From Pseudomonadota bacterium (GTDB lineage: Bacteria; Pseudomonadota; Alphaproteobacteria; JACQOE01): DNA of 64,000 nucleotides. The translations under genes were made by a program, and so were the position numbers. Positions within the stretch are counted from its first letter, which is position 1. Each line of letters opens with the position of its first letter. Under the pieces are notes generated by a model. The model searched no databases. It saw only the letters and a program-made list of their open reading frames with translations, and was not told the origin of the DNA. The stretch lies in assembly GCA_016202695.1 (NCBI GenBank), contig JACQOE010000007.1, positions 1 through 64,000 on the forward strand, in the 5' to 3' direction. Shown here piece after piece: positions 3,178-31,097 of the stretch.

Positions 3178-3396
3178 GCCACATACAGTTGCACCCGCTT
3201 GAGGCTCTCAGCTCAAAGAGAGGCTCCATCTCTGTCGGGCCCGACGGGAAGGCCCTAATTGCGGGCATGATCGCGCAGCAGGAACTCACCCGTAGCCACA
3301 AGAGGGACGGAAACTTAGGCGTCACGACGCACCGGAAAGCGATGCCGGGGAGCCCCGTCGTACGGAAACGACGGGGCCACGGCCCGGCCAAAGAGA
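3178..3396. other. intergenic stretch without a convincing gene
   Basis: Open frames exist here, as everywhere in this GC-rich DNA, but none has a ribosome site or a recognisable protein pattern. It is likely the tail of the mobile-element debris to its left. Confidence 0.4.
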
Positions 3397-3424
3397 GGGG
3401 GTCGGGCGATGAAGCCCGACCCCC
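3397..3424 (-). terminator. hairpin after the glycine-rich secreted protein gene
   Basis: GGGGGTCGGGC at 3397-3407 pairs perfectly with GCCCGACCCCC at 3414-3424 around a 6-base loop. It lies 28 bases past the stop of the minus-strand gene ending at 3452. Read on the minus strand it is followed by TCTCTTT, a weak U-tract. Confidence 0.55.
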
Positions 3425-3451
3425 GGGAGGCGAGTAGGCGAGTTGGAGGCG

Positions 3452-4213
3452 TCAGCTGGAGGTCGTGCTGGTGCTGCCTTCCACGGTCGAGCCGGTGCCT
3501 GTCTCGCCGCCCTCCGAGGTGGTTCCCGTAGTGCCTTCGCCGCCCGTTCCGGTTTCTTCGGTCGAGGGCTCGGTTCCGGTCTCGGTTTCGCCCGCGCCAG
3601 GCTCGGTGGGCTGCACGCCCAGGAGCGCGTTGACCGCGGCGGTCACCTCGGGTGTGATCTCCTTGTTCGAGATCGCGGAGAGCATAGCCTCGGCTTCCTC
3701 GACCGAGACTCCCTTCTCGATCGCGTCGCGATACGCCGCCAGCATCCCGACGGTGGAGTTGGGCGCGGCGTTCGCCAGCGCGGTCGGCGAGGCATGTGCG
3801 GCGTTGAGCTTGCCGAGTGCGCTCGCGATGGCGCCGCGGCTGGATGTGGTCGACTCCTCGGTCGTGGCGGCCGAGGCACCGCTGTCGCGGCCGCGGCCAA
3901 CACCGCCGGCGTTGCTGTGATCCGGGGCATTTCCGAAGCCGCCGGCGTTGCTGTGGTCCGGGGCATTCCCGAAGCCGCCGCCTTGGCCACCGGCGGCGCC
4001 GCCCGCGTTGCCGCCACCCTGGCCGCCGCCGCTCCCGGCTCCGGCGCCGCCCCCACCGCCGCCGCTACCACCCCCACCGCCGCCCTTCGCGTGCGCGGCG
4101 GCGAGGTCCGGCAACGGGTTGCCCATCTCGATGTGTACGGGGACCGCCACCAGCGCAAGCGCGAGCGCGGTCGTCGAGGTCAATCTCATCAAAGTCCGTG
4201 TGCATACCCTCAT
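3452..4213 (-). CDS. secreted glycine-rich protein of unknown function
   Basis: A 253-residue protein with an N-terminal signal-like hydrophobic stretch (about residues 9-42, ending near AAAHA). A long Gly/Ser/Ala tract follows and contains two tandem copies of GGFGNAPDHSNA. A helical Ala-rich segment covers residues 125-195 (SALGKLNAAHASPTALANAA, then VEEAEAMLSAISN), and a Thr/Gly/Glu/Ser-rich low-complexity tail ends the protein. The start is supported by GAAGGGAG about six bases before ATG 4213; an internal Met at residue 9 is an alternative. The gene has its own promoter with the shared 11-bp repeat element and diverges from the lipoprotein gene at 4659. It is probably a periplasmic or surface protein, but I do not recognise the family. 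Confidence 0.7.
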   Translation of the reverse strand: MRVCTRTLMRLTSTTALALALVAVPVHIEMGNPLPDLAAAHAKGGGGGGSGGGGGGAGAGSGGGQGGGNAGGAAGGQGGGFGNAPDHSNAGGFGNAPDHSNAGGVGRGRDSGASAATTEESTTSSRGAIASALGKLNAAHASPTALANAAPNSTVGMLAAYRDAIEKGVSVEEAEAMLSAISNKEITPEVTAAVNALLGVQPTEPGAGETETGTEPSTEETGTGGEGTTGTTSEGGETGTGSTVEGSTSTTSS

Positions 4214-4295
4214 GACACTCTCCCTTCGCCGGCGTTTCCGCTTGGCGCATTAGGCCGGGGGGCCCGATGGCCAACCAGCGTTTCCGATAGGTTTT

Positions 4296-4340
4296 ACTAT
4301 AGGCGCGTATCGTTCACCCCGGTTGTGAGCAAGCTGTGAC
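4296..4340 (-). promoter_or_regulatory. 11-bp-repeat activator box and -10 for the 4213 gene
   Basis: On the minus strand GTCAC starts at 4340 and CTCAC at 4329, exactly 11 bp apart. A TATAGT -10 occupies 4301-4296, starting 28 nt after the start of the last half-site. There is no good -35, as expected when an OmpR/PhoB-type activator binds in its place. The 445-base gap between the divergent genes (4214-4658) otherwise holds only this element and its plus-strand counterpart. Confidence 0.6.
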
Positions 4341-4481
4341 AAGGTGCCTTTCGGCCAGCATGTGTTGGCAGGCACGGCTCGTTCACCGCGAAGTCGCGTC
4401 CGGGGGAGGAGATGGCGGGGCTTCGCGGCAGCATTCCATCGCACGTCCCGACCGGGTTTCAGACCCGGCGTCGGCGGGCCC

Positions 4482-4537
4482 GTCACGGATTTGACACGGC
4501 CTTGTCGCGGGCGTGGGCGCGGCCCGAATCCTAACTT
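4482..4537 (+). promoter_or_regulatory. triple 11-bp-repeat activator box and -10 for the 4659 lipoprotein
   Basis: GTCAC at 4482, GACAC at 4493 and GTCGC at 4504 form three half-sites at 11-bp spacing. The -10-like TAACTT begins at 4532, 28 nt after the third half-site starts. Nearly the same sequence and geometry recur before the genes at 9925 and 16338. The architecture is that of a winged-helix response regulator site. Confidence 0.65.
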
Positions 4538-4658
4538 CCTCCTTACGCGCCAACACTTGGCGTGGCGGAAGGGAAAGCAGCGTCGAGAGAGATCTCATCG
4601 CCAGACCCGCCGCCGGTGCGGCCATTTCCTGTCCATCTTAGACGAGTAGGAGAATGTC

Positions 4659-4943
4659 ATGAAGCCAATCCTGCGCACCCTGCCCGTCCTTGCCATGCTC
4701 GCGACGGCGGCTTGCTCGAACCTCAATACGATCGAGGAGCGCACCCTCACCGGCGGCGCGATCGGCGCCGGCGGCGGGCTTGCGATCGGGGCGCTGGCCG
4801 GCGGACCCCTCGCCGGAGCCATCATCGGCGCCATCGGCGGCGCCGCGATCGGAGGGCTGACCGCCGAGGAACAGGTCAAGGTCGATCCCAGGGCCCCCAC
4901 GGGTGCCCCCGCCCCGCTCGGCCAGCAGCCCGCCAGGCCGTGA
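4659..4943 (+). CDS. small glycine-zipper lipoprotein
   Basis: 94 residues. A signal peptide ends in a lipobox with the lipid-modified Cys at about residue 19 (ATAACS). A glycine-zipper segment follows (GGAIGAGGGLAIGALAGG and onward), able to insert in or span membranes, then a short Pro-rich tail. TAGGAGAATGTC before the ATG is a good ribosome site. It is clearly paralogous to the lipoprotein at 17345: both share the CSNL start, EER, then a GGA.GAGGGL.IG pattern. It is probably anchored in the outer membrane as an envelope-stress product, controlled by the upstream repeat box; the MscS-type gene lies 94 bases downstream. Confidence 0.85.
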   Translation: MKPILRTLPVLAMLATAACSNLNTIEERTLTGGAIGAGGGLAIGALAGGPLAGAIIGAIGGAAIGGLTAEEQVKVDPRAPTGAPAPLGQQPARP

Positions 4944-5037
4944 TCCGCCTCGGAGAAGCACGCCCGCCGGCACAGCCCACGGTGGCGCGCTTCTCCCTTG
5001 CCATTCCGAGTCCGTGGGACCGAGACGCAAGAGAGGC

Positions 5038-7521
5038 ATGACACGTCCCATATCACCGAGGCGACACCTCACGTTTGTGATCGCGATCATCGCTTTGGTC
5101 GGGATGGTAGCCGTTGCGGCCTCGCAGGACATCGACGACGTAAGCCACCAACTCGATCAACTCGGAGCCGATCTCGATCAGGTCGAGTCGGTCCTCAAGC
5201 AGCCTTGGGTGTGGCGTGAGGTCCTCGAGGATATCCGCGACCGCGTGGATCGTGTCACTGAGGAGTCCGAGCGGCACAAGAAATGGGCGGAAGATCAGGC
5301 GAAAAAGCGGGAAGAGCTTCTCGCCACACTAGGCCCGGTCCCGAAGAATGAAAGTTCCGACCCCCCCGAGGTCGCCAAACGGCGCCACGAGCTTGCGGCT
5401 GGTAAGACCGCGCTGGAGGGATCGGCCAAGCGGGCGCGGCTGCTGATCGCTCAGGCAAATGACCTGCGCGGGCGAATCGGAGAATCCCTCGCGCGGCTTA
5501 CCACTCGCGCGCTCTTCCAGCGCACCGCCCCGTTGACCGATCCGGCCCGCTGGGCCACGGCCGCCAGGGAGCTCGACGACGCGCTCGAAACGGCCCTCTC
5601 CAGGGCCGGCTATGCGACGGCCGCCCCCGGCTCTCCACAGCACGGCGTGGCGGCCCTCTTGGTATTCATCGGGCTCGCGGTGCTCTTCGGCCTCCAGGTC
5701 GGCGCACTCCGACTCATCACGCGCTCGCCGGGCGGGACTTCGCACGGCGGCTCCGTGCAATTCGGCCCTGTCATGCGCCGCGTGCTCGTCGAGAGCGGCG
5801 GGCCGGTCCTCGGCGCCCTCGGCGTCCTGCTCGTGCTCCGCGGCCTGGATATCATCAGTGCGGTCGAGATGTGGCTGATCGCGACCGCCTTCGGGCCGGT
5901 GACGGGGGTCATGGCGGGAGCGGCGATCCTCACCGGATTCTCGACATTGGCCAGCCGCGGATCGCCGGCGGAGCCGGTTCCGGAATACCGATTGATCCGG
6001 CTGTGGATCGTGCTCGCGGGGATGGGCGGTCTCAGCTATTTCCTCTCCGAGGCGAGCCAGGCCCTCATCGCGGTGCCCGAACTCTTCCGGGTCACCCAGT
6101 TCCTGGTCCGCATCGTCGTCGCGACGACGGCGGTGCTGCTGCTGAAGAAAGGGCTGTTCGCACACGTTCAAAACGTCACCTTCGCCGCCGTGCGCGGACA
6201 GAGGAGCCGTCGCCGGGCGCAGCGGAGGGCCCTTCTCCTGGGCCTGCTCCTCGCCGGTGCGGCCATGGTCCTCGTCGCCAACCCGCCCCTGCTCGCCGCA
6301 GGGTATTGGACGCTCAGTGACTGGCTTTTCTTCGGAGTGAGCGGCTCGATCGGGCTGATCGGAAGCGCGCTCCTTCTCTCGCGCACGGCGCACCAATTGG
6401 GGCCCCGCCTTCTCCGCCGGTGGCTCCGGCCGATGCTGGTGCGGGGCCTCGGCCTCCGCTTTCCGGCCACCCGCCTGCACAATGTCGAGTTCTGGATGAA
6501 CGCCGCCGCGACCCTGTGCATCTGGGCGGCGGCCGGGATCGCCGGCCTGCACCTTTGGAGCGTCGCCCCCCTTGCGCTTGCGAGCGGGGTCCGCGCCGCC
6601 GGCGAAGGCGTCACCATCGGCGGTTTGCACCTCTCCGTGCGCGATGTGGCCTTGGCATTCGCCGTCTTCGGGACCCTGATCCTGCTCACCCGCCTGACGC
6701 GGCGCACCCTGCAGACCAAGGTCTTTCCCCGAACGCGGCTCGATCCCGGCGCGCGCGCGGCGCTGTCAACGGGAATCAGCTATGGCGGAGTCGCCATCGC
6801 AACGCTAAGCGCGCTCACCACGCTCGGAGTCAGCCTCTCGCATCTCGTGCTCGTCGCCGGGGCGCTCTCGGTCGGAATCGGCTTCGGCCTTCAGGCCATT
6901 GTCAACAATTTCGTCTCCGGAGTCATCATGCTCATCGAACGGCCGATCAAAGTCGGGGACTGGGTGGTGGTCGGCGCGCACGAGGGGATCGTCAAGAGGA
7001 TCAGCGTGCGCGCCACCGAGATCCAGACCTTCCAGCGGGCGTCGGTACTGGTCCCCAACTCCGAGCTCATTACCGGCACGCTCACCAACTGGACGTTCAA
7101 GGACCTCACGGGCCGGGTCGACGTCAAGGTGACCATCGCCCAGGAGAGCGACGTCGCCCGGGTGCGCGCGCTCCTGCTGGGATGCGCGCGAGATCATCCC
7201 GAGATTCTCGACTACCCGGCCCCGCGGGCAATGCTTCGCGGCTTCGGGGAGTACGGTCTCGAGTGCGAGCTTTGGGCCTTTATCCGCATCCGCGAAGTGA
7301 CCGACAAGGTGCGGGTGGAAAGCGAGCTGCGCGAGGCCGTGCTCGCGGCGTTCCGACAGCATGACGTATCCATTCCCTACCCCTACCACAAGATTCACGT
7401 TGTCGCGTCGAATCGAACCCGGGCCGTCCTCCTTGCAAAGGGACAACGATCCGAGGCACAAGGGCCGATCCGCAAGTCGCGCGCCCTTCGTCGCCGAGAG
7501 GATGCAGGGGCCAGGTCGTGA
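5038..7521 (+). CDS. large MscS-family mechanosensitive channel
   Basis: 827 residues. A signal-like N-terminus (residues 5-28) leads into a periplasmic coiled-coil region (about 30-140; VDRVTEESERHKKWAEDQAK) of the DUF3772 type. Many membrane helices follow, then the MscS pore helix from about residue 600 (GALSVGIGFGLQAIVNNFVS) and the beta domain (ERPIKVGDWVVVG, then LVPNSELITGTLTNW), and a mixed C-terminal domain. MscK/YbdG-sized relatives release solutes on hypo-osmotic shock. ATG 5038 is chosen because GAGAGG precedes it and the signal-like sequence follows. It may be co-transcribed with the 4659 lipoprotein and so share its activator box. The last 40 residues are basic and probably cytoplasmic. 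Confidence 0.85.
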   Translation: MTRPISPRRHLTFVIAIIALVGMVAVAASQDIDDVSHQLDQLGADLDQVESVLKQPWVWREVLEDIRDRVDRVTEESERHKKWAEDQAKKREELLATLGPVPKNESSDPPEVAKRRHELAAGKTALEGSAKRARLLIAQANDLRGRIGESLARLTTRALFQRTAPLTDPARWATAARELDDALETALSRAGYATAAPGSPQHGVAALLVFIGLAVLFGLQVGALRLITRSPGGTSHGGSVQFGPVMRRVLVESGGPVLGALGVLLVLRGLDIISAVEMWLIATAFGPVTGVMAGAAILTGFSTLASRGSPAEPVPEYRLIRLWIVLAGMGGLSYFLSEASQALIAVPELFRVTQFLVRIVVATTAVLLLKKGLFAHVQNVTFAAVRGQRSRRRAQRRALLLGLLLAGAAMVLVANPPLLAAGYWTLSDWLFFGVSGSIGLIGSALLLSRTAHQLGPRLLRRWLRPMLVRGLGLRFPATRLHNVEFWMNAAATLCIWAAAGIAGLHLWSVAPLALASGVRAAGEGVTIGGLHLSVRDVALAFAVFGTLILLTRLTRRTLQTKVFPRTRLDPGARAALSTGISYGGVAIATLSALTTLGVSLSHLVLVAGALSVGIGFGLQAIVNNFVSGVIMLIERPIKVGDWVVVGAHEGIVKRISVRATEIQTFQRASVLVPNSELITGTLTNWTFKDLTGRVDVKVTIAQESDVARVRALLLGCARDHPEILDYPAPRAMLRGFGEYGLECELWAFIRIREVTDKVRVESELREAVLAAFRQHDVSIPYPYHKIHVVASNRTRAVLLAKGQRSEAQGPIRKSRALRRREDAGARS

Positions 7522-7633
7522 CGGTGGAGATCGGACAGGGATCGATTGTCGCGGCGGCACATGTGCCCGGACGGGTGATCGACGCTTGGCCTTAAAAGCG
7601 TGCCCGACCGGCTGGACTATCGGCAATTACCAG

Positions 7634-8701
7634 CTACAGGATCACCTCCTCGTCCTCATCGGTCGCGTCCATGAATATCGCGCCCTGCCTGAGCAATTGC
7701 TGGGCCAGGGTGATGACCTCGGCCTGCGCCTCCCAAACCTTGGATTGGCGAACATTGCCCAATGCCTCGATGTCCTCTTGCAACATCCACGCCGCGCGCT
7801 GCGACATGTTGGCCATGAATAGCTCCCGGGTGGAGTCGTTGGCGCCTTTGAGGGCCATGGCAAGCAGCGGCTTCCTCGTCTCTCGTATCAGCGCCTGAAT
7901 CCCGCGCGCATTGATGCCGGCAAGGTGATCGAAGGTGAACATCAGTGCCTTGATCCTTTGCGCGGCCTCCTGGTCACGCGCTCCGAGAGCGGCGAGGAAC
8001 CGGGTCTGCGTGTCGGGGTCCAAACGATTGAAGATTTCGGCGACCTTTCCGCAGTTGTCCTGCGACCGCCCGCTTAGCAGATTTCCCGCGAGCTCCTTGC
8101 CGAGCGCACGTTCCACCTCGGCAACCGCCTCCTTTGTGACCGGCCCGGAGTGCAGCATCCGCAGCATCACGTCGGCGGCCACGTCGTCGGGAAGGACGGC
8201 CAGGACGCGCCCCGCCTGAACGGGCGAGATGGCCGAAAGCACCAGGGCTACCGTTTGCGGATACTCAGCCTTCAGGTAGTTCGCAAGCACCCCTTCATTG
8301 ATGCCGCTCAGCTTCTCCCAGATGGTTCGGCCGGCCGGAATCTGAAGCGGATCAAGGATTCTCCGCACCCGGTCTTCGGTCATGGTCCCGCGGAGGAAAC
8401 GCTCCATCCGCTCTGGGGAGCCGACGAGCGAGCCGGGCGCGGAGAGCCTGTCGGCGAACTCGCGGATCAGGCCCTCGACTTGGCCGGTGCCGATCGCCCC
8501 GACGCCTGCCATGGTCCGGGTGATAGCTTCGATTTCCCTATCGTCCATCAGCGCGAGCAGCCTGCCGGCGCGATCCGCCCCGAGAACGAGCATGAGGATC
8601 GCCGCCTTCTCGGGTCCCGAGGGTCGGCGGTTGCCGCCTTTGCCGCCCGCTGCTGCGGGCCTCGCGGGCTTCGGGTCGCTGGCCTTTCCGAGCCGTCTCA
8701 T
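7634..8701 (-). CDS. fliG: flagellar motor switch protein FliG
   Basis: 355 residues with the three FliG domains: an N-terminal segment from about residue 30 (SGPEKAAILMLVLG), a middle domain (SGINEGVLANYLKAEYPQTV) and a C-terminal armadillo-like domain (MFTFDHLAGINARGIQALIR), ending in the acidic tail DEDEEVIL. FliG couples stator torque to the C-ring. ATG 8701 is preferred because GGGAG precedes it; the frame stays open 32 codons further up. It stands alone with no other flagellar gene in the window. The charged residues of the torque helix look altered (the expected EDI..L..R pattern is only partly kept), so a specialised paralogue is possible. Confidence 0.85.
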   Translation of the reverse strand: MRRLGKASDPKPARPAAAGGKGGNRRPSGPEKAAILMLVLGADRAGRLLALMDDREIEAITRTMAGVGAIGTGQVEGLIREFADRLSAPGSLVGSPERMERFLRGTMTEDRVRRILDPLQIPAGRTIWEKLSGINEGVLANYLKAEYPQTVALVLSAISPVQAGRVLAVLPDDVAADVMLRMLHSGPVTKEAVAEVERALGKELAGNLLSGRSQDNCGKVAEIFNRLDPDTQTRFLAALGARDQEAAQRIKALMFTFDHLAGINARGIQALIRETRKPLLAMALKGANDSTRELFMANMSQRAAWMLQEDIEALGNVRQSKVWEAQAEVITLAQQLLRQGAIFMDATDEDEEVIL

Positions 8702-8833
8702 TCGGGCTCCCGCTCGATCGCGCCAGGTCCATCGGCCCCCGGCCCTCGATCGAGGCAAGCCCTCATCCCACTCGGAAATTTGAAGTGATTTTTGCATTGA
8801 CGGTGCGTGGGCACCGTAGAGACACTCACGCAG

Positions 8834-9583
8834 TTAACCTCGCCCGATGGCTGTTTCAAGACCGCCTGTCCGCCGCCGCGCCGAGCCCGGGGAGCGCGCG
8901 GAGGGGACGAAAGAGCCGAATTCCGCCGCCATGTGGGAATGGGTCGAGGTCGCGCCGGCCGACAATCCGAGCGCCGGTCGGGGCGGCTCGACCGCCGAGA
9001 GCGGTGCAAGCAGGTATTGGCGCCAGCTCGTCCGGATCTGCTGTTCGAGGGCGACGTCGAGATCGTTCATCAGGTCCCTGACCAGGGTGACGTACACCCT
9101 GTCCCGGTCCGGCCCGCCGAGGTTCGGCTTCACGTTGCGGGCCCGCTCGGCCTCGACCTTGATCTCGTGCTGCGGCACGCCGTCCCGGTCGCGAACCTCG
9201 AGCATCATCGAGACCCTGGCCCTCAGCCGCTCGGTTCCCAGCAGGAAGGGAACGTCCGTCTGCTGCGCGCGGATCACGCTGGCCTCGCGGATGTAGACCA
9301 CGGCCTTTCCCGCGAATCCCCCGGCCTCCAGCCGATCCCGGACCCAGCGGACGACGGCGGTCTCGGGCGGCGTCGGGAACTCGTGCTCGACGTAGGGGGC
9401 CTGCATCGGCGAGCGGTACTGGGGCACGACCTCCACCGCCGCCACGTTGAGCCGGATCCGCGGCAGATGCGCGAAGGAGATGGTGTTACGCGCGGGTTCC
9501 TCGGGGACCGCCTGGCACGCCGCCAGTGCGAGGGCGGCCCCCACGGCGAGGATGACTCCACGGCGTAGAACTAAGTGCATCAT
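8834..9583 (-). CDS. lipoprotein of unknown function
   Basis: 249 residues. A signal peptide (RRGVILAVGAALALAAC) ends in a clear lipobox, with the lipidated Cys near residue 23. The mature domain has a mixed alpha/beta pattern (LNVAAVEVVPQYRSP, then YVEHEFPTPPETAVVRWVRD), ERLRARVSMMLEVRD.DG, and a Gly/Ser/Arg-rich tail. The pattern resembles periplasmic lipoproteins found beside response-regulator loci in related bacteria, but I cannot name a family. ATG 9583 has GGGAG upstream. It is driven by its own minus-strand 11-bp-repeat promoter at 9730-9785. fliG follows in the same direction after 132 bases, with a small 7-bp hairpin at 8800-8817 between them. Confidence 0.75.
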   Translation of the reverse strand: MMHLVLRRGVILAVGAALALAACQAVPEEPARNTISFAHLPRIRLNVAAVEVVPQYRSPMQAPYVEHEFPTPPETAVVRWVRDRLEAGGFAGKAVVYIREASVIRAQQTDVPFLLGTERLRARVSMMLEVRDRDGVPQHEIKVEAERARNVKPNLGGPDRDRVYVTLVRDLMNDLDVALEQQIRTSWRQYLLAPLSAVEPPRPALGLSAGATSTHSHMAAEFGSFVPSARSPGSARRRTGGLETAIGRG

Positions 9584-9729
9584 CGTCTCATCTCCCGATC
9601 CGGGGCCTCCGGGCGGTTCGTCCGCTGGTCGCGGGCGAATGCCCCGGCGCCGCACCCTATGGTCCCTTCTGCACTGTCGATCATGGAGTCCAACCCGTCC
9701 GTCCCTTGGTCCGGTCCTCCGCGAGACAA

Positions 9730-9785
9730 GAGTTGGGCCCGACGGCGCCGTCTTGCTCGCGACAAGGCTGTGTCAAAGCTGTGCC
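9730..9785 (-). promoter_or_regulatory. triple 11-bp-repeat activator box for the 9583 lipoprotein
   Basis: On the minus strand GGCAC, GACAC and GTCGC start at 9785, 9774 and 9763, spaced by 11 bp. The segment 28 nt beyond is CAACTC (9735-9730). It keeps the AACT core seen at 4532 but lacks the TA of the other five, so the -10 is the weakest of the set. It lies back to back with the plus-strand box at 9833 in the 341-base gap between divergent genes. Confidence 0.6.
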
Positions 9786-9832
9786 GACCGCGAGCGAGAG
9801 GACCAGCCCGTTGCGACGCAAGGCCAGGGGCA

Positions 9833-9888
9833 GTCACAAATTTGACACGGCATTGCTTCGGGGCGGACGGCGGCGACGCGATTAGGAT
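9833..9888 (+). promoter_or_regulatory. triple 11-bp-repeat activator box and -10 for the 9925 gene
   Basis: GTCAC at 9833, GACAC at 9844 and a weak GCTTC at 9855. TAGGAT at 9883-9888 starts 28 nt after the third position. Together with the minus-strand box at 9763-9785 it makes a divergent regulatory region. Confidence 0.62.
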
Positions 9889-9924
9889 CATCGCGCAGGG
9901 CAGACAGCATCTAGGGATTGGACG

Positions 9925-10377
9925 ATGCCGCTCTCGACCATCATCGGCGGGTTATCGCGGGGTTCGGCTCCGCCGTCGGACGTCTCGGTGTCGGAGATGA
10001 AGCGGGCGATCGGCCTGCTCGAGCGCACGCACGCGCGCCTCAGCCTCTTCATCCTCCAGTGTCAGGATGACCTTACGCCCTCGCGCTCGGCCCGTCTCGA
10101 ACAGGCCCTCGACCATATCGGGGTCACCGGGCGACTGGGCGGACGCACTTTCGGGCTCCTCTATATCGGGCCGCGATGTCCGGGCAGGCGGGGCGATGCC
10201 GAGATCGAACGTCGGATCATGTGGCAATTGCGCGGCGCCCTGCGGCGCAGTGGCGACGAGCGGCTGGCGAGCCTCTTGATTCTCGATGTGGTCCACTTCT
10301 GGTCGGACCAGGGAGCGACGATCCCGAGCCTGCTCGCCAAACTCGAAACCGCCGTTCCCGGCTGGCGGTCGAACTGA
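9925..10377 (+). CDS. small cytoplasmic protein of unknown function
   Basis: 150 residues with no signal peptide. The central part (MKRAIGLLERTHARLSLFIL, then GGRTFGLLYIGPR, then IERRIMWQLRGALRRSG) has the order of elements of a degenerate GGDEF-like fold, where GGRTF would replace GGDEF. This is only a resemblance; if true, the protein could not make c-di-GMP. It lies 30 bases downstream of a predicted transcription start from the 9833 box, so it is probably part of the same regulon. A 39-residue membrane protein follows 38 bases later. Confidence 0.6.
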   Translation: MPLSTIIGGLSRGSAPPSDVSVSEMKRAIGLLERTHARLSLFILQCQDDLTPSRSARLEQALDHIGVTGRLGGRTFGLLYIGPRCPGRRGDAEIERRIMWQLRGALRRSGDERLASLLILDVVHFWSDQGATIPSLLAKLETAVPGWRSN

Positions 10378-10415
10378 GCGTCGGGAGTCCGCGGCCATCG
10401 ACAGGGAGGCGAACG

Positions 10416-10535
10416 ATGATCGCACCAAAGGACATCGTGATCGGCGTTGTCATGGGAACCGGGTTCGTCGGCACCATCGTGGCCTGCGGCCTCGTTCTTG
10501 GACTGCTCCTCGCCGCGGTGGGCGGAATCGGCTAA
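10416..10535 (+). CDS. 39-residue single-pass membrane protein
   Basis: The frame encodes 39 residues that are almost entirely one transmembrane helix (IVIGVVMGTGFVGTIVACGL and onward to AAVGGIG). The ATG is preceded by AGGGAGG at ideal distance, the main reason to accept it. It lies between the 9925 gene and the predicted small RNA, in the same direction, and is likely co-transcribed with the former. Function unknown; small membrane proteins of this kind often tune sensor kinases or transporters. Confidence 0.55.
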   Translation: MIAPKDIVIGVVMGTGFVGTIVACGLVLGLLLAAVGGIG

Positions 10536-10571
10536 CAGCCTGCCGATACCCAGGGGCGGCGGCATGGGATT

Positions 10572-10616
10572 GTCACGGGAAACTCACACCATCCCTGGCC
10601 CGCAACCGGGTATACG
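10572..10616 (+). promoter_or_regulatory. 11-bp-repeat activator box and -10 before the predicted small RNA
   Basis: GTCAC at 10572 and CTCAC at 10583 are 11 bp apart, and TATACG at 10611-10616 starts 28 nt after the last half-site. This two-site version matches the box before the 4213 gene in bases and spacing (GTCAC, 11 bp, CTCAC, 28 nt, TATA). No ribosome site or plausible start follows, only a terminated stretch of about 100 nt. Confidence 0.6.
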
Positions 10617-10622
10617 CGACCT

Positions 10623-10721
10623 GGTGGCTGTCTGATCGTTACCACGACTGACGCAAGGCCACGAACTCACCTCCCCAAGCAGCCTGGAACGGGTGAGGCT
10701 TCCCCCACCCGTTCCCTTTTT
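10623..10721 (+). ncRNA. predicted small regulatory RNA of about 100 nt
   Basis: Start predicted seven bases after TATACG; end set by a strong intrinsic terminator. The 5' part can form a weak hairpin (GGTGG near 10623 with CCAC near 10642). A pyrimidine-rich stretch CACCTCCCC (10668-10676) stays unpaired and is complementary to strong Shine-Dalgarno sequences; the terminator loop carries a second one (CTTCCCC). No open frame with a ribosome site occupies the span. Caulobacter ChvR shows that small RNAs under ChvI-type regulators exist. No sequence relation to ChvR is claimed. Confidence 0.5.
10686..10721 (+). terminator. intrinsic terminator of the predicted small RNA
   Basis: GGAACGGGTG (10686-10695) pairs over all ten bases with CACCCGTTCC (10706-10715), with a 10-base loop, followed by CTTTTT ending at 10721. 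It is the best-formed intrinsic terminator noticed in the window. Confidence 0.8.
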
Positions 10722-10831
10722 CCGGGCGACGAGGGAGAAAGGCATCTGGCCTATCGAGTGGACATCGCAATATCGGAGCGCCACAGCGCACACCACCGCG
10801 GAAACCGCCGGCAGCGCTGTTGAACGGAAGC

Positions 10832-11308
10832 ATGATGCGACGCTGGAGATACGACTTCAATGTTCCGGGGCGCCTCGGACCCGCGGAGGCGAGCCCCGCG
10901 GGTGCCGCCCTGGAACCCGAAGATCCGCCCGGCAACATCCTCTTCATCGGCCCCGACATCGCCTTCAAGGGTCGCATCTTCAATTGCGACACGATCATCG
11001 TGCATGGCGACCTCGAGGCTTCGGTCGAGGCTCGCGGGCTTCACATCGGTGATGACGGGAGGTGCCGTGGGAAGGTGGCGGTGGAGACAGCCGACATTGC
11101 GGGTCAATTCTCCGGCGAGTTGACCGCGCGAGAGCGGCTCGTGATCCGATCGACGGGCCGAGTGGAGGGCAAGCTGCTCTACAATAGGCTGGTGGTCGAA
11201 GATGGGGGCTCGATCGTCGGGCAGGCTGCGATCGTGGAAGAGCCTGCCGTGTCCGTCGCGGTCGAGAATGCGACGCGGGTTGCGGGCGTGCTGCCCTCGG
11301 GGGGCTAG
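10832..11308 (+). CDS. bactofilin family protein
   Basis: 158 residues with the bactofilin (polymer-forming cytoskeletal) domain from about residue 37. It shows the repeated beta-helix pattern IGPDIAFKGRIFNCDTIIVH, then GDLEAS, GLHIGDDGRCRGKV, GQFSGELTARERLVI and RVEGKLLYNRLVVEDG. Bactofilins polymerise without nucleotide on membranes and often recruit peptidoglycan enzymes. The N-terminal 35 residues are disordered and Pro/Ala-rich. The start is uncertain: ATG 10832 and ATG 10835 are adjacent, after a weak GGAAG. The context of lipoproteins and a glucosaminidase fits a role in envelope shape or repair. Confidence 0.85.
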   Translation: MMRRWRYDFNVPGRLGPAEASPAGAALEPEDPPGNILFIGPDIAFKGRIFNCDTIIVHGDLEASVEARGLHIGDDGRCRGKVAVETADIAGQFSGELTARERLVIRSTGRVEGKLLYNRLVVEDGGSIVGQAAIVEEPAVSVAVENATRVAGVLPSGG

Positions 11309-11466
11309 GAGGATGGCGTCCCACCGCGCGGGCCGAACGAAGGGGCCGATTCCTGGACCGCACTCCGCCCAGGCCGTCGACCCGAATTCGACAGGCAAGC
11401 CGCACGTGGAGTCGCGCGGACTTGCCACGCGCCGGTGCCGTCCGGGGTACGCCGGCGGGGCGGCCC

Positions 11467-11482
11467 TGTGACCGGCGTCACA
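11467..11482. promoter_or_regulatory. perfect CRP/FNR-type palindrome
   Basis: TGTGA at 11467-11471, six bases, then TCACA at 11478-11482 match the CRP consensus TGTGA-N6-TCACA in all ten defined positions. A GTCAC at 11477 and another at 11488 are also 11 bp apart, so an OmpR-type box could overlap, but no -10 lies at the usual distance. The element is 172 bases before the cNMP-binding protein gene. The 345-base gap 11309-11653 shows nothing else. Confidence 0.4.
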
Positions 11483-11653
11483 CCGCCGTCACGGGGCATA
11501 TGAGACACTGGCCGCGGACGCGATGAGAGGCCCATTGAGGCCCGAATGCACACTGCCTGGCGCTGCTTGGCGCCGTAGTCCGGCGGTGGATTGCGCTTCC
11601 CCGCCGGGGCGAGGCCCAACTCGGACGCGGGCGCGCGCAGGAGGTGCGGCGGA

Positions 11654-12049
11654 ATGACGAGGCTGGACGTTCACGACCGCAAGGTCTTCCGCGCCGGAGG
11701 CGTGATCTACGCCGAAGGCGAGGCGGGAGATTGCGTCTACATCGTTCAATCGGGCGCGGTGGAGCTGGTCCGAAGCACCGATGACGGGCCGCTCGTCATC
11801 GCGCGCGTCGGCCCCGGCGGACTGTTCGGCGAGAAGTCGCTGATCGACGGCCGGCCCCGTTCGGCGACCGCGCTCGCCGCCCAGGATACGGTCTGCGTCG
11901 TGGTTCCGCACAGCGCGTTTGCCGACAAGCTCCGCCGGACGGATCCCTTCGTGCGGATGCTGCTCAATCTCATCGTCGCTGATTTCCGCCGGGCCCTGAC
12001 GAAGGACCCGGACGACACGGGCGGTCGCGGCGCCACCGGCGGACCTTGA
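11654..12049 (+). CDS. stand-alone cyclic-nucleotide-binding domain protein
   Basis: 131 residues made almost only of one CNB fold: FRAGGVIYAEGEAGDCVYIV, a GAVELVRS strand, then the phosphate-binding cassette with GLFGEKSLIDGRPRSATALA, where the Glu and Arg that hold the cyclic nucleotide are present. No helix-turn-helix follows, so it is not a CRP-type regulator by itself. ATG 11654 is preceded by AGGAGGT and is clearly the start. It may be a cNMP sensor acting through a partner, or a relative of the Crp/Fnr-like domain used in membrane-potential or channel control. Confidence 0.85.
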   Translation: MTRLDVHDRKVFRAGGVIYAEGEAGDCVYIVQSGAVELVRSTDDGPLVIARVGPGGLFGEKSLIDGRPRSATALAAQDTVCVVVPHSAFADKLRRTDPFVRMLLNLIVADFRRALTKDPDDTGGRGATGGP

Positions 12050-12136
12050 CCCGAATACGCGACCGCCAAATTTATGGGAGGTTGGTGGAGGCGGCCCTTT
12101 TTTTGGCCCAGGGTGTCGAGGAGGCGAAGACCGGTC

Positions 12137-13252
12137 ATGCGGCGGAACCTTGCGAATGCACTCCTCGTCGTTTCGCTCGGCCTCGTCGGTTGCGCCCAGG
12201 TTACCGAGGTCGCCGACCAGGCCGCCATCAGGCTGGACGGCATGCTCGGCCAGGGGCGTGGCGCGCGGACCGAGGCGGCGAACGAATCCGAGCGGGCCTA
12301 TCGGCAGGGTTTGCGTTACATGAACGGCGAGGACATGGCCCGCGACGAGCGACGGGCCGCGACCTATTTCCAAGAGGCGGCCGCGGCTGGAAATGCCGAC
12401 GCCCAGTTCCTCCTCGGGCTCTCCTACCAGGACGGACAGGGCGTGGCGAAAGACGAGACGGAGGCTGTCCGCTGGTTCCGCGCCGCCGCCGCGCAGGGCC
12501 ACGCCGACGCCCAGTATCTGCTCGGGCTCGCCTCGTGGCGTGGTGTCGGGACGACCAAAGACGCCGCCGAGGCGGTGCGCCGGTTTGCCGAGGCTGCCGC
12601 CTCGGGCCATGCCGGCGCCCAGTATCATCTAGGCGTCGCCTATGGGTCGGGGCAGGGGGTCGAGCCCAACGACGAGGCGGCGCTCCTCTGGCTCGAGCGC
12701 GCGGCCGCCCAGAACCACCCCGAGGCCCAGTTCCTCTTCGCCTCGGCCTTCACCAACGGCCGCGGCACCGGCAAGGACCACGCCTGGGCCGCCCGCTGGT
12801 ACGGAAAGGCCGCCGAGCAGGGCCTGGCGCGGGCCCAGTACATGCTGGGGCTGTCCTACGGCGCCGGTCTGGGCCTGCCCAAGGATCTCGAGCGGGCGTT
12901 CTTCTGGCTCAGCCTGGCGGCCGAGCGCGGCGACGAGGACGCCGCCGTGCTCCGCCGCTCGCTCTCGGGGAGGCTCCCGCCCGAGGTGCGGGCACGTGTC
13001 GAGAGCCGCGCCGCGGACTGGCACCCGACCCAGGGGGAAGGCCCGGAGGACGGGCCGACGGTGAGATTCGTTCAGATCGCGCTCCGGGAGATCGGCTTCG
13101 ACCCAGGGCCCGTGGACGGGGCATACGGGGCGCGTACCCGCCAAGCCCTGGTCGCCTTCCAGCGGCGCGCCGGGCTCGACGCCGACGGCAGCGTGAGCGC
13201 GGTCGTGCTGGCGCGGTTGCGCGCCGATCGCGCTCTCAAGAAGTCGAACTGA
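12137..13252 (+). CDS. Sel1-repeat lipoprotein with peptidoglycan-binding domain
   Basis: 371 residues. A signal peptide ends with lipobox VGC at about residue 18. Six or so Sel1/TPR-like repeats follow (each like GNADAQFLLGLSYQDGQGVA) between residues 50 and 270, then a C-terminal PG_binding_1 domain (VRFVQIALREIGFDPGPVDG, GARTRQALVAFQRRAG). It is probably a periplasmic scaffold anchored to the outer membrane and bound to peptidoglycan. ATG 12137 is chosen because a signal peptide starts there and GAGGAGGCG lies upstream. It precedes the two-component locus in the same direction. Confidence 0.85.
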   Translation: MRRNLANALLVVSLGLVGCAQVTEVADQAAIRLDGMLGQGRGARTEAANESERAYRQGLRYMNGEDMARDERRAATYFQEAAAAGNADAQFLLGLSYQDGQGVAKDETEAVRWFRAAAAQGHADAQYLLGLASWRGVGTTKDAAEAVRRFAEAAASGHAGAQYHLGVAYGSGQGVEPNDEAALLWLERAAAQNHPEAQFLFASAFTNGRGTGKDHAWAARWYGKAAEQGLARAQYMLGLSYGAGLGLPKDLERAFFWLSLAAERGDEDAAVLRRSLSGRLPPEVRARVESRAADWHPTQGEGPEDGPTVRFVQIALREIGFDPGPVDGAYGARTRQALVAFQRRAGLDADGSVSAVVLARLRADRALKKSN

Positions 13253-13392
13253 ACGGACTCGAACGGAGGTGCCGTATTTGCGCGAGTTGCCGAGCCCGAG
13301 CCGCCATCCGGCCGCCGTCATCGCCTCCGGGGCAAACGTGCCGATGGCGGCCGGGGGTCGGTTTCGGACCCGGCGCGCGTCTCGCGCCGGGA

Positions 13393-13422
13393 TTGGTCGT
13401 GTCGCGGACGCTAAGCTAGAAT
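13393..13422 (+). promoter_or_regulatory. sigma-70-like promoter before the two-component locus
   Basis: TTGGTC (13393-13398), an 18-base spacer, then TAGAAT (13417-13422), 41 bases before the start of the first gene of the locus at 13464. Unlike the other promoters in this region it has no clear 11-bp-repeat box. Confidence 0.45.
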
Positions 13423-13463
13423 GGTGCCGCCATGCCCTTCCCCTCGAGCGCGTGGGAGTCGAC

Positions 13464-13913
13464 ATGAAAAGCGACGCGGCGCTGGCCACGATTGGACTGC
13501 TCTTCTTGGGAGCCTGCACCCTCCCGTGGGCCAGCCCTTGGGAGGGCACGCGGCCGGCTTCGCCGGGCCAAGCTGCGCCGGACAAGCCTGCGGCAGCGGC
13601 CGCCGCGGTCGGTCCGAAGCCCGCCGCGATCGCCCGTCCAGCGCCGGGCCTTGAGCCTCAGGCGCTGGTCGGGCTCGATCCCGAGCAGGCCGAATTCATT
13701 CTCGGGCGCCCCTCCGACGTTCGCCAGGAGCCCCCTGCCACCGTCTGGACCTACCGCTCCGGGTCCTGCACGCTCGACCTGTTCTTCTACGCCGACATCC
13801 AGAGCCGCGCACTCAAGTCGCTCGCCTTCGACCTCAAGGCGCCGGCCACCACCGAGTCCGCACGGCGCGACTGCTTTGCCACCATCGTCGCCGACCATCG
13901 TGAGCGACGATAG
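13464..13913 (+). CDS. small lipoprotein upstream of the response regulator
   Basis: 149 residues with a signal peptide and lipobox LGAC (Cys near residue 17), a Pro/Ala-rich linker, then a compact domain (residues 70-140) with two strands around a Cys pair: VWTYRSGSCTLDLFFYAD and RRDCFATIV. This resembles the SmpA/OmlA-like lipoproteins in general layout, but I cannot assign it. ATG 13464 has GGGAG at good distance. Its end overlaps the start of the response regulator by 14 bases, so the three genes form an operon and the lipoprotein may feed into signalling. Confidence 0.75.
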   Translation: MKSDAALATIGLLFLGACTLPWASPWEGTRPASPGQAAPDKPAAAAAAVGPKPAAIARPAPGLEPQALVGLDPEQAEFILGRPSDVRQEPPATVWTYRSGSCTLDLFFYADIQSRALKSLAFDLKAPATTESARRDCFATIVADHRERR

Positions 13914-14673
13914 CCCCACCCAGAGGCCCGTCCACGTGGCGGTGGTGGACGACGACGGCCTGTTCCGCGAGTCCCTGGAGCAGAACCTCCGCGACGCCGG
14001 CTTCGAAACCATTGCCTTCGCCGACGGCCCGGAGGCGCTCGCCTACTTCGCGGGCGGGGGCGAGGCCGATCTCGTGGTCCTCGACTGGAAGATGCCGGGG
14101 ATGAACGGGATCGAGGTGCTCCGCAGGCTGCGCGGGGACGGTAGGCCGGTTCCGGTGATCTTCCTCACCGCCTTGACCGACCAAATCTTCGAGGAGGCAG
14201 CGCTGGGCAGCGGCGCCATCGACTTCGTCGAGAAGACGAGGAGCTTCTCGATCCTGCGGCACCGGATCGAGCTAATTGTCGGCGGCGCCAAGGGGCGCGG
14301 GCAAGAAGCGCCGCCGCGGCCGGAAACGAAAGAATCTCCGAGTCTGCGAATCGGCGATCTCGAACTCTCGCTTGACAGCCACCGGGCGCTCTGGAGAAAT
14401 CGCCACGTCGAGCTCACGCTGGCCGAGTTCCACATGGTTCACCTCCTCGCCGCGCGCGCCGGCAAGGACGTCGACTACCGGGAGCTCTACGACGTCGTGC
14501 ACGGCGAAGGCTTCATCGCCGGCGAGGGCCCCGAGGGCTACCGGGCGAACGTCCGTACCTTCATCAAGCGCATCCGCGAGAAGTTCCGCGACGCGGACTC
14601 GACGTTCGACCGCATCCAGAACTACCCGGGCTTCGGCTACCAATGGCTGCCCGACAACACGCCGCCATCGTGA
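13900..14673 (+). CDS. OmpR-family response regulator, ChvI-like
   Basis: 257 residues. The receiver domain spans residues 12-130: the acidic pocket is VVDDDG, the phospho-acceptor Asp is near residue 61 (VVLDWKMPGMNG), the Thr is in IFLTALT and the conserved Lys in VEKTRSF. A winged-helix DNA-binding domain follows (residues 150-250; LTLAEFHMVHLLA, then RANVRTFIKRIREKF). GTG 13900 is inferred from the overlap with the upstream gene; no clear ribosome site is seen, and GTG 13936 is an alternative. The layout and sequence recall ChvI, the acid and envelope-stress regulator of alphaproteobacteria. It is the obvious candidate to bind the 11-bp-spaced boxes that surround it. Confidence 0.85.
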   Translation: MSDDSPTQRPVHVAVVDDDGLFRESLEQNLRDAGFETIAFADGPEALAYFAGGGEADLVVLDWKMPGMNGIEVLRRLRGDGRPVPVIFLTALTDQIFEEAALGSGAIDFVEKTRSFSILRHRIELIVGGAKGRGQEAPPRPETKESPSLRIGDLELSLDSHRALWRNRHVELTLAEFHMVHLLAARAGKDVDYRELYDVVHGEGFIAGEGPEGYRANVRTFIKRIREKFRDADSTFDRIQNYPGFGYQWLPDNTPPS

Positions 14674-16175
14674 CGATCCTGGGCGCGCCCGCGAGGATCG
14701 CCCGCTCGCTCGCCGGCAAGTTCGCCATCCTGCTGGTCATCTTCGCGATCGTCCCGCTCATTCTCTATGGGCAGTTCCGCGTCGCCGACGAGGAGAAGCG
14801 CGGCCTCGTGCTGAATGCCGTCGGCGAGCAGGGGCGACTGATCGCCCAGGGCCTGGCGCCGTTGCTCCGCGACTTCGGCGGCCGCAGCATCCCCGCCCTC
14901 AATGACGCGCTGGCCCGGTTCGGCGGACAGTCGCTCCGGATCAAGCTGCTGCTCCGCGCCCCCGGTACCACCGGTTCCGGCGGTTTTTACTACATTGCGG
15001 CTTATCCCAGGGTCTCGGGCGACTATCTCGAGAAGGACCGCACCGAGCTGATCGGGTCCGGCGTCCTTGCCCGGCTCGGCGAGGGCTGCACGGGCGACGA
15101 GCACTCGGCCCAGCGCTACCGAAACCCGGCCGGCGAGGAGGAGGTTCTCACCTCGCTCACCCCGGTGAGCACGGACAAGGGCTGCTGGGCCGTGATCACC
15201 TCGCATACGGGCTCCGAATACCTCGGCTCGACCCTCGGCCGCTCCTACTGGCAGAGCCGCGAGGTGCGGCTCGCCGCGTTCATCTACCTCCTGATGGCGG
15301 CCCTGGTTGCGGCCCTCTTCCTCGGCCTGTGGCGGAATCTACAGCGCTTCGCGCGCCTCGCGCAGCGGCTGAGCGCGGCGCCGCCCGACTCCGAAAACTC
15401 CTTCGCCGCGCTCAACCGGGTTCCGGAACTTTCGGGGATTGCCTCCGAATTCGACCGCATGGTCGACGTCCTCCGTCGCACCGCCGGGGCCATCCGCCAC
15501 GCCGCCGAAGAGAACGTTCACGCCCTCAAGACCCCGATCGGCATCATCGCGCAGTCCCTCGATCCGATCCGGCGCGCCTTGCCGGCCGAGGCGGAGGGCG
15601 CGCGCTCGGCCTGCGACCGCGTCGAGCGCTCGGTGGAGAGGCTGGACGCGCTCGTCTCCGCCGCCCGGCGCATGGAGGAGGTGATCGCCGAGTCGATGAG
15701 CCCGCCGCGGGCGCGACTGGCCCTCTCCGATTTGCTCGCGCGCCTCCTCACGACCTTCGAGGAGACCATGGCCGCGCGGGGCGTGCGCCTGGAGCGGAGC
15801 ATCGAGCCGGGGCTTGCCCTGCTCGCCGGCGAGGAGACCATCGAAGCCGTGATCGAGAACCTCCTCGAGAACGCCCTCGGGTTCTCCCCCGCGGGCCGCT
15901 CGATCCGCGTCACCTTGCGCAAGGACGGACGGTCGGCCGAGCTGTGGGTCGAGGACGAGGGGCCGGGGGTCGAGCCCGCGAATCTCGATCGCATCTTCGA
16001 GCGTTACTACTCACACCGCCCATCCCGCCCGGATCAGCCGGCCGACGACGAGACCCACTTCGGCATCGGCCTCTGGATCGTCCGCCGCAACGTCGAGTCC
16101 CTGGGCGGATCGGTCCGCGCCGAGAACCGACCCGAGGGCGGCCTTCGCGTGCGCCTTCGCCTGCCTCTCGCGTGA
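14670..16175 (+). CDS. membrane sensor histidine kinase, ChvG-like
   Basis: 501 residues. One N-terminal helix (FAILLVIFAIVPLILYGQF), a periplasmic sensor domain of about 170 residues, a second helix (residues 203-225), a HAMP-like linker, then HisKA with the phospho-His near residue 284 (HALKTP). The HATPase follows with N box (VIENLLENALGFSP), G1 (DEGPG) and G2 (GIGLWIV). The start GTG 14670 overlaps the regulator stop by four bases, the usual sign of translational coupling. It phosphorylates the upstream regulator. The periplasmic part contains two Cys (near residues 140 and 174) that could be redox-linked. Confidence 0.87.
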   Translation: MTILGAPARIARSLAGKFAILLVIFAIVPLILYGQFRVADEEKRGLVLNAVGEQGRLIAQGLAPLLRDFGGRSIPALNDALARFGGQSLRIKLLLRAPGTTGSGGFYYIAAYPRVSGDYLEKDRTELIGSGVLARLGEGCTGDEHSAQRYRNPAGEEEVLTSLTPVSTDKGCWAVITSHTGSEYLGSTLGRSYWQSREVRLAAFIYLLMAALVAALFLGLWRNLQRFARLAQRLSAAPPDSENSFAALNRVPELSGIASEFDRMVDVLRRTAGAIRHAAEENVHALKTPIGIIAQSLDPIRRALPAEAEGARSACDRVERSVERLDALVSAARRMEEVIAESMSPPRARLALSDLLARLLTTFEETMAARGVRLERSIEPGLALLAGEETIEAVIENLLENALGFSPAGRSIRVTLRKDGRSAELWVEDEGPGVEPANLDRIFERYYSHRPSRPDQPADDETHFGIGLWIVRRNVESLGGSVRAENRPEGGLRVRLRLPLA

Positions 16176-16238
16176 GCCCATCGTAGGCGCCGCCGGCGCA
16201 CGACCTGCGCACCCAGCGTTTCCGCGGCGCTCCCTCCC

Positions 16239-16294
16239 GTCACAGATTTGACACGCCTTTGTCGCGGGCCTTCCACGCCCGGCTTTCTTACGAT
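16239..16294 (+). promoter_or_regulatory. triple 11-bp-repeat activator box and -10 for the glucosaminidase gene
   Basis: GTCAC at 16239, GACAC at 16250, GTCGC at 16261; TACGAT at 16289-16294 starts 28 nt after the third half-site. Except for a few bases it repeats the box at 4482, including the ATTT and TTGTCGCGGG flanks. It lies 44 bases before the gene and 64 bases after the sensor kinase stop. Confidence 0.65.
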
Positions 16295-16337
16295 TGCCGC
16301 CGAAAGCCGCTCCCGCAACGGCAACGGAGACCGGGAC

Positions 16338-17309
16338 ATGCGCAAAGCCGAGACGATGCTCATGGCGAGCCTCCTGCTGCTGGCCGCAGGCTGCGCCGAA
16401 TCGGACGGGAAGGCGAACGCGGGCTACGGGCCGGCAACGGTGACGCCCGCGTCTGCGCCTTCGGCAGAACCCCCGGAAGGCGACCCCGCGAGGGCCGCCG
16501 GAAGGGCGGCTCCGGCGTCCCCGCTCCTGCCCGGAATGCCGGCGGACGCGCTGTTCCTGTTTTTCCGCTGGATCGACTACGACCTCGATGCCGTGCGCGA
16601 CGGCGAGGCGTCCGTTCCCAGGCTTCTGGTGGCGGGCTTGCCGCCGGACCTGCGGGGGCTGCACCCCATCGCGGAGCGCAAGGAGCTGTTCCTGGGCGCG
16701 GTCTTGCCGGCCGTGCTGGAGGTCAACGACACCATCCTCCGCGACCGACGCTTCCTTACGCGGATCCAGGCGCGCATCGAGATGGGCGAGTGGCTCGACG
16801 CCGATGAGCGCGGACGGCTCGATTCAATCGCCGATCGCTATGGCACCGGCGATTTCGACGAGCTCCTGCTGCGCGTCGACGTCGTTCCCTCGGCCCTTGT
16901 CCTCGCCCAGGCGGCGATCGAGAGTGGCTGGGGCACCTCGCGCTTTGCCCGCACCGGAAACGCCCTCTTCGGACAGCGAGCCTGGGGCGGGAACGGAATG
17001 AGACCGCGCGAGCTCGACTCGCCGCCGTTCCGGGTGCGCGCCTTCGAGCATCTGCTGGCCTCAGTCGAAGCCTATGTCCATAACCTCAACACGTTCCCCG
17101 CCTATCGGGCCTTCCGTGCCCGACGCGCGGCGATGCGGCGCGGGGGCGGACCCCTCGACAGCCACACCCTCGCCGGCACGCTCCACCGCTATTCGGAGCG
17201 TGGCGCCGACTACGTCAGGGAACTTCGCGCCATCATCCGCGCCAACCGGCTGGAGGGGCTCGATTCGGCAAAGCTGATGGAAAGCGCGCAGCAAGCAGAC
17301 CAAGCCTGA
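16338..17309 (+). CDS. glucosaminidase-family lipoprotein (Bax-like)
   Basis: 323 residues. A signal peptide ends in a lipobox (LLAAGCAES; Cys near residue 19), then a Pro/Ala linker, then a GH73-type N-acetylglucosaminidase domain. The catalytic Glu is near residue 194 in AQAAIESGWGTSRFA, followed by GNALFGQRAW, VEAYVHNLNTFPAYRAFRA and RYSERGADYVRELRAII. It cuts glycan strands of peptidoglycan in the periplasm. ATG 16338 follows CGGAGA. It is led by the shared repeat box, so cell-wall remodelling appears to be an output of the two-component system next door, and it may be co-transcribed with the next three envelope genes. Confidence 0.85.
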   Translation: MRKAETMLMASLLLLAAGCAESDGKANAGYGPATVTPASAPSAEPPEGDPARAAGRAAPASPLLPGMPADALFLFFRWIDYDLDAVRDGEASVPRLLVAGLPPDLRGLHPIAERKELFLGAVLPAVLEVNDTILRDRRFLTRIQARIEMGEWLDADERGRLDSIADRYGTGDFDELLLRVDVVPSALVLAQAAIESGWGTSRFARTGNALFGQRAWGGNGMRPRELDSPPFRVRAFEHLLASVEAYVHNLNTFPAYRAFRARRAAMRRGGGPLDSHTLAGTLHRYSERGADYVRELRAIIRANRLEGLDSAKLMESAQQADQA

Positions 17310-17344
17310 GCGAGAGACTCAATGACGGAGAAAGGAGTACGCCC

Positions 17345-17647
17345 ATGAAACGGATCACATACGCCATGGCTATCGTAGTCATGCTCAGCATGACCGCCTG
17401 CTCCAATCTCGACACCCAGGAAGAGCGCGCACTGAGCGGCGGCGCCATGGGTGCCGGCGGCGGCTTGGTGATCGGTACCCTCGTCGGCGGCCCCCTCGTC
17501 GGGGCACTCGTCGGGGCGGGCGCCGGAACGGCCGTCGGAGCCTTCACCTCGAACGGTCAGGTGCACGTCGACCCCCGTCCGGCACAGCGACAGCCGGCTC
17601 AACGCGAGCCGACCCGGCTCGGCCAATACCAGCCGACGAATCGCTGA
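17345..17647 (+). CDS. small glycine-zipper lipoprotein (paralogue of 4659)
   Basis: 100 residues: signal peptide with lipobox MTAC (Cys near residue 19), CSNLDTQEERALSGG, a glycine zipper (GAMGAGGGLVIGTLVGG and onward), then a Gln/Pro/Arg-rich tail. A very good AAAGGAG precedes the ATG. It shares start, zipper and spacing with the protein at 4659, so the two arose by duplication. It lies 35 bases after the glucosaminidase gene in the same direction. Confidence 0.85.
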   Translation: MKRITYAMAIVVMLSMTACSNLDTQEERALSGGAMGAGGGLVIGTLVGGPLVGALVGAGAGTAVGAFTSNGQVHVDPRPAQRQPAQREPTRLGQYQPTNR

Positions 17648-17689
17648 CCGATCACGAACGACAACCGCCAGCGCTCGAGGGGACAAGCC

Positions 17690-18295: not shown

Positions 18296-18377
18296 GGCGT
18301 CGGGGCCTTTCGTTCGAGGCCAACGGAACCCAGCCATGCGGCCAGTTCTTCAAATGCGACATGTTGAGGAGGCACAA

Positions 18378-30497: not shown

Positions 30498-31097
<600 letters not shown>

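Follow-up and report, generated by a model that had tools for sequence, protein, structure and literature searches.

Direct repeats with an 11-bp period are a familiar signature of PhoB, whose Pho box carries TGTCA cores in place of the -35 element, with about 15 nt separating the last half-site from the -10 in E. coli pho promoters. For ChvI, an OmpR-family regulator of alphaproteobacteria, the published motifs are TTGC-N3-GCAA and N-GCC-N8-GCC. CenK/CenR, likewise an alphaproteobacterial OmpR-family system, uses the direct-repeat motif TGA-N8-TGA and has envelope targets within a genome-wide regulon (PMC9275681). The PhoP box of Mycobacterium tuberculosis, TCACAGC-N4-TCACAGC, is a tandem dimer site with a strict 4-bp spacer that can be extended to trimers (PMC4832192).

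Here, we describe a cluster of tandem boxes in a 64,000-nt stretch of alphaproteobacterial DNA (referred to below as the window), along with a two-component pair encoded among them, whose response regulator gene starts at position 13900. Judging from the sequence, it is very likely that the phosphorylated 13900 regulator binds the tandem boxes just upstream of the -35 position and activates a local regulon of envelope genes. The pair and its box look to be real and so far undescribed, representing a kind of gene switch that is otherwise familiar; no description turned up in literature searches on pairs of the 13900 type, on ChvGI paralogues, or on Bax in connection with two-component systems.

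Tandem boxes and promoter layout in the window

An earlier note on this DNA had listed 16 half-sites, worded GTCAC, GACAC, GTCGC, or CTCAC, in six promoters. When all 16 positions were re-read, the steps proved to be exactly 11 bp throughout, but the wording failed at two of them (9855 reads GCTTC, and 9785 reads GGCAC). Three half-sites make up box A+ (4482..4508, plus strand), box D (16239..16265, plus strand; GTCAC-N6-GACAC-N6-GTCGC, directly 3' of the kinase gene), box B+ (9833..9859, plus strand; GTCAC and GACAC followed by the degenerate GCTTC), and box B- (9759..9785, minus strand; GGCAC, GACAC, and GTCGC). Two half-sites, GTCAC and CTCAC, form box A- (4325..4340, minus strand) and the weak box C+ (10572..10587, plus strand).

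The four three-half-site boxes and A- far exceed background in the 64-kb window. Triples of the four named words occur twice at a spacing of 11 bp in the window, and not once at any other same-strand spacing from 6 to 24. A matrix built from the six sites scores those sites at 23–39, the next-best place in the 64 kb reaches 13.9, and mononucleotide shuffles yield a mean of 0.2 places scoring at least 14. With each site left out of the matrix in turn, four remain at the top of the window, A- takes rank 7, and C+ takes rank 60; C+ is a weak site that is not separable from background by sequence alone. Across the whole 3.36-Mb genome, both the exact core TCACNNNNTTGACAC and a 26-bp form with up to three mismatches occur three times, always within the window, and the strict box is confined to a 12-kb stretch. 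No box stands in front of the lipoprotein–regulator–kinase operon itself in the window. A further GTCAC pair with an 11-bp step is present at 11477-11504, 5' of a gene for a cyclic-nucleotide-binding protein (11657); it has no T-rich spacer, and its score does not reach background.

A fixed promoter layout had also been proposed, and here the claim was borne out: at five of the six sites, a -10 hexamer starts exactly 28 nt after the start of the last half-site. These are TAACTT for A+ (4532..4537, plus strand), TATAGT for A- (4296..4301, minus strand), TAGGAT for B+ (9883..9888, plus strand), TACGAT for D (16289..16294, plus strand), and the candidate TATACG for C+ (10611..10616, plus strand). 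The exception is B-, which has CAACTC at that offset and no -10. No recognisable -35 is present at a 17-bp spacer, again in line with the earlier description.

Genes downstream of the boxes

The target of box D is a Bax-like glucosaminidase (16338..17309, plus strand; PF01832; PRK10356, 'protein bax'). After a 35-nt gap, it is followed by a Gly-zipper lipoprotein gene (17345..17647, plus strand), which is probably carried on the Bax transcript and which shares an HMM family with the Gly-zipper lipoprotein gene under A+ (4659..4943, plus strand); an MscS-type channel gene comes next after the latter, at 4996. Box A- faces a gene for a Gly/Ala-rich exported protein (3452..4213, minus strand), and B- faces a lipoprotein gene (8834..9583, minus strand), neither falling into any family. 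The target of B+ is a small protein that we refer to as s9925 (9925..10377, plus strand); it has no Pfam, PDB, or NCBIfam match, and its single-sequence structure prediction is of low confidence (pLDDT 42). A bactofilin gene (10832..11308, plus strand; PF04519) is the candidate target of C+. Some of these targets are transcribed divergently from shared intergenic regions. A predicted RNA, previously counted among the targets, finds no support in Rfam, of which no family matched within 3000-18500. Positions 12074-13252, 5' of the operon, encode a Sel1-repeat lipoprotein with a peptidoglycan-binding domain.

A conserved lipoprotein–regulator–kinase operon

The first gene of the operon encodes a small lipoprotein (13464..13913, plus strand), a homologue of which lies directly 5' of the regulator gene in 43 of 43 loci. 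Overlapping it is the gene for an OmpR-family response regulator (13900..14673, plus strand; GTG start; Response_reg and Trans_reg_C), the proposed reader of the boxes, followed by that for a ChvG/CreC/BaeS-like membrane sensor histidine kinase (14643..16175, plus strand) with a HATPase_c domain and partial NCBIfam matches below cut-off. Assignment to the OmpR/PhoB family rests on PF00072, PF00486, and HATPase_c scores above cut-off, with regulator and kinase genes adjacent in all loci. The three-gene operon is kept in all 43 alphaproteobacterial loci, and the kinase gene follows the regulator gene in each of the 44 loci read (the window's own copy being included or counted besides). Orthologues of the regulator with 45-67% identity occur in 61 of 385 genomes of the class, and all five matches in a sample of 299 genomes from the phylum belong to that same class. 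Named close relatives come from Rhodospirillales MAGs and Azospirillum; the window's genome is the sole one of its order among those compared.

Across the window and the 43 loci, the invariant residues of the lipoprotein are G70, G81, W95, Y97, C102, and C137, of which C102 and C137 are cysteines beyond the lipobox. Its C-terminal domain is predicted to be globular, with a small alpha/beta structure (pLDDT 90-98). No Pfam or PDB sequence profile identifies the protein, and because even the best hit of a fold search with the model, a DUF4309 protein, is not significant (E = 0.04), a BamE-like fold is offered as a guess. The lipoprotein is a candidate sensor accessory.

The pair had earlier been called ChvI/ChvG-like, which is correct as a likeness but not as an identity. 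A canonical ChvI-ChvG pair is encoded on another contig (C81) of the same genome, with 36% identity between its regulator and the 13900 regulator, and both pairs are present in 23 of the 24 genomes tested, where ChvI is 64-77% identical to the C81 copy. This paralogy and co-existence rule out the 13900 pair as the canonical ChvGI. The kinase scores 101 bits against the Caulobacter ChvG model NF058527 of NCBIfam, failing its cut-off of 740, and the regulator scores 83.8 bits against a PhoB model with a cut-off of 296.2, a model for which the true PhoB of the genome, on contig C37, reaches 323.9 bits. Seven more OmpR-family regulators, complete or nearly so, were located in the genome. Another receiver domain is encoded in the window at 30755-31093 (minus strand), outside the box finding.

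The box recurs beside the operon in other genomes

A search of related genomes, suggested at the outset as a check, gave a positive answer: a matrix built from the window only finds the box beside the orthologous operon in many genomes, where the -10 offset and the target families also agree with those of the window. At a threshold of 12, the 400 bp following the kinase stop codon contained 19 sense matches, spread over 14 of the 43 loci, and one antisense match, where 0.31 would be expected from the match density elsewhere in the same loci. The resulting P of ~1e-27 is too small, because some of the matches counted are overlapping registers of a single box and a few of the loci come from the same genus, but that there is an excess is certain. 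Another eight matches, each in the divergent orientation, cluster just 5' of the operon. A refined matrix places a box after the kinase gene in 19 of the 43 loci, all in the sense orientation, and no box within 400 bp upstream of the regulator gene, with 0-3 matches in eight sets of control regions from the same loci. Independently of any matrix, a word score detects triples of at least 19/21 in nine of 43 loci at 11 bp, compared with 0-2 at every other spacing. Raw spacing counts over the whole 20-kb loci show no 11-bp peak, as coding sequence swamps the signal; the peak is seen once the counts are restricted to the region after the kinase gene.

The promoter layout recurs together with the box. 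TANNNT is found 27-28 nt after a half-site in 12 of the 19 refined boxes, with 0.76 expected for four offsets together; in seven of these the distance is 27 or 28 nt from the third half-site, and in the other five it is 16 or 17 nt from the third, which equals 27-28 from the second. The same two classes exist in the window, where the two-half-site boxes A- and C+ count from the second half-site. None of the 19 boxes had entered into setting the offset, and the agreement provides an independent confirmation of the 28-nt rule.

Target families follow suit. According to HMM searches covering every locus, the kinase gene is directly followed by a gene for a Bax-like glucosaminidase in eight loci besides the window. 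The s9925 family occurs beside the operon in six loci apart from the window, directly after the kinase gene in five of them and divergent under a box in L163. Gly-zipper lipoprotein genes follow operon-side boxes in L050, L179, and L185, and a bactofilin gene comes after kinase gene and box in L049. The gene order in L156 is kinase, box, s9925, Bax, Gly-zipper, and in L047 a divergent box with a -10 at 28 nt lies 5' of a gene for a Sel1-repeat lipoprotein resembling the product of the 12074 gene. Boxed families that are scattered over the window thus adjoin the operon elsewhere, and no other argument ties box, regulator, and targets together as strongly.

After the kinase gene, 24 of the 43 loci have no box above threshold, and four Azospirillum loci likewise have none; such loci probably have a diverged code or another set of targets. 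When one mismatch is allowed, the more relaxed pattern TTGYCACARCNTTGYCACA has so few matches across the class that it does not tell genomes that carry the regulator from those that lack it, and it shows no clear concentration in the former (4 of 13 matching genomes). In L203, L207, and L211, where no regulator orthologue was detected, TTGYCACARCNTTGYCACA matches stand directly before the start codons of apparently related tyrosine-integrase genes (MAxxRKRxNxxQVQxRR), and may possibly represent an operator or attachment-site repeat.

Probable reading of the boxes by the 13900 regulator

We infer that the 13900 regulator is the protein that binds the boxes, and that it activates rather than represses. 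Going by the families involved, the kinase would phosphorylate this OmpR-family regulator, which would then bind head-to-tail to two or three half-sites of consensus TTGTCACAGC with an 11-bp period. If the -10 hexamer starts at -12, the last half-site would start at about -40, beside the missing -35, and from there the regulator could recruit RNA polymerase, by what its family suggests is class II activation, to the -10 starting 27-28 nt downstream. The output would consist of the Bax-like glucosaminidase, Gly-zipper lipoproteins, s9925, a further lipoprotein, the exported protein, and perhaps the bactofilin.

The boxes might instead be PhoB (Pho) boxes, or be read by CenR, the canonical ChvI, or another OmpR-family regulator, leaving the adjoining pair as a bystander. 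The half-site, TGTCAC at 11 bp, resembles the PhoB box, and the genome does encode a true PhoB, ChvI, and other OmpR-family regulators. However, no box lies near PhoB-pst, the canonical ChvI, or five other OmpR-family regulators (7-19 kb around each; the best refined score in the 19 kb around PhoB, at the pst locus, is 8.4), and the boxes instead track the lipoprotein–regulator–kinase operon across genomes. In addition, the published ChvI and CenR motifs differ from the box, and the -10 stands 28 nt from the last half-site rather than the roughly 15 nt of E. coli pho promoters. We regard another reader as unlikely. Slightly less probable again is that the 13900 regulator, once bound to the boxes, acts as a repressor or serves chiefly to regulate its own operon: divergent boxes do stand just 5' of the operon in several loci, but those after the kinase gene all point downstream, away from it, and a -10 at fixed distance without a -35 is the layout of an activator-dependent promoter. 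The probability is negligible that the pattern is a product of coincidence or of repeats, with promoter DNA of this GC-rich genome having been duplicated of late and half-sites chosen by eye. Boxes A+ and D are indeed very similar, and C+ by itself is not significant, but the likeness of A+ and D stops at the box and -10, distant genomes carry the box in the same position and orientation, and shuffles and control regions yield almost nothing. For the main sites, an artefact is thereby refuted; C+ may still be due to chance.

With activation of a local envelope regulon by the 13900 regulator as the preferred reading, we tentatively raise a broader possibility, which we hold with less than even confidence: a conserved alphaproteobacterial three-component envelope-sensing system, in which the lipoprotein gates the kinase and a cell-wall remodelling output (Bax-like hydrolase, bactofilin, Gly-zipper lipoproteins) issues from the promoter directly after the kinase gene. 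The role given to the lipoprotein here is suggested by the protein families involved. The two-component system, which occurs in about one-sixth of the sampled alphaproteobacterial genomes, would acquire a DNA code along with a promoter layout and a set of targets, and would stand beside ChvGI and CenKR among the envelope regulators. Once a Bax-like peptidoglycan hydrolase and Gly-zipper lipoproteins, possibly together with a bactofilin, are linked to a named regulator, their roles also become testable.

Comparison with known systems

The cross-genome test supports the 13900 regulator as the reader of a local regulon, but the further claim of the earlier note, that this regulon has a binding code of its own, does not stand, as the half-site resembles both PhoB and mycobacterial PhoP boxes. 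With the Pho box, the window boxes share TGTCA repeats at 11 bp, but their last half-site lies about 13 bp further from the -10, and they are not near pst. With the M. tuberculosis PhoP box, they share the 11-bp period and a near-identical half-site (TTGTCACAGC), and PhoP binds head-to-tail in tandem (PMC4832192); PhoP, however, belongs to another phylum and regulator subfamily, whereas the targets of the 13900 system are alphaproteobacterial envelope genes, and the likeness supports the mechanism rather than family membership. ChvG/ChvI (ExoS/ChvI, BvrS/BvrR) is alike in being an alphaproteobacterial OmpR-family pair with envelope targets, but the genome encodes it separately, as a second pair, and its published motifs are different. 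CenR likewise has another motif and is unlinked to Bax or the lipoprotein, yet CenK/CenR and the 13900 system are found in the same class and have in common direct repeats and envelope targets.
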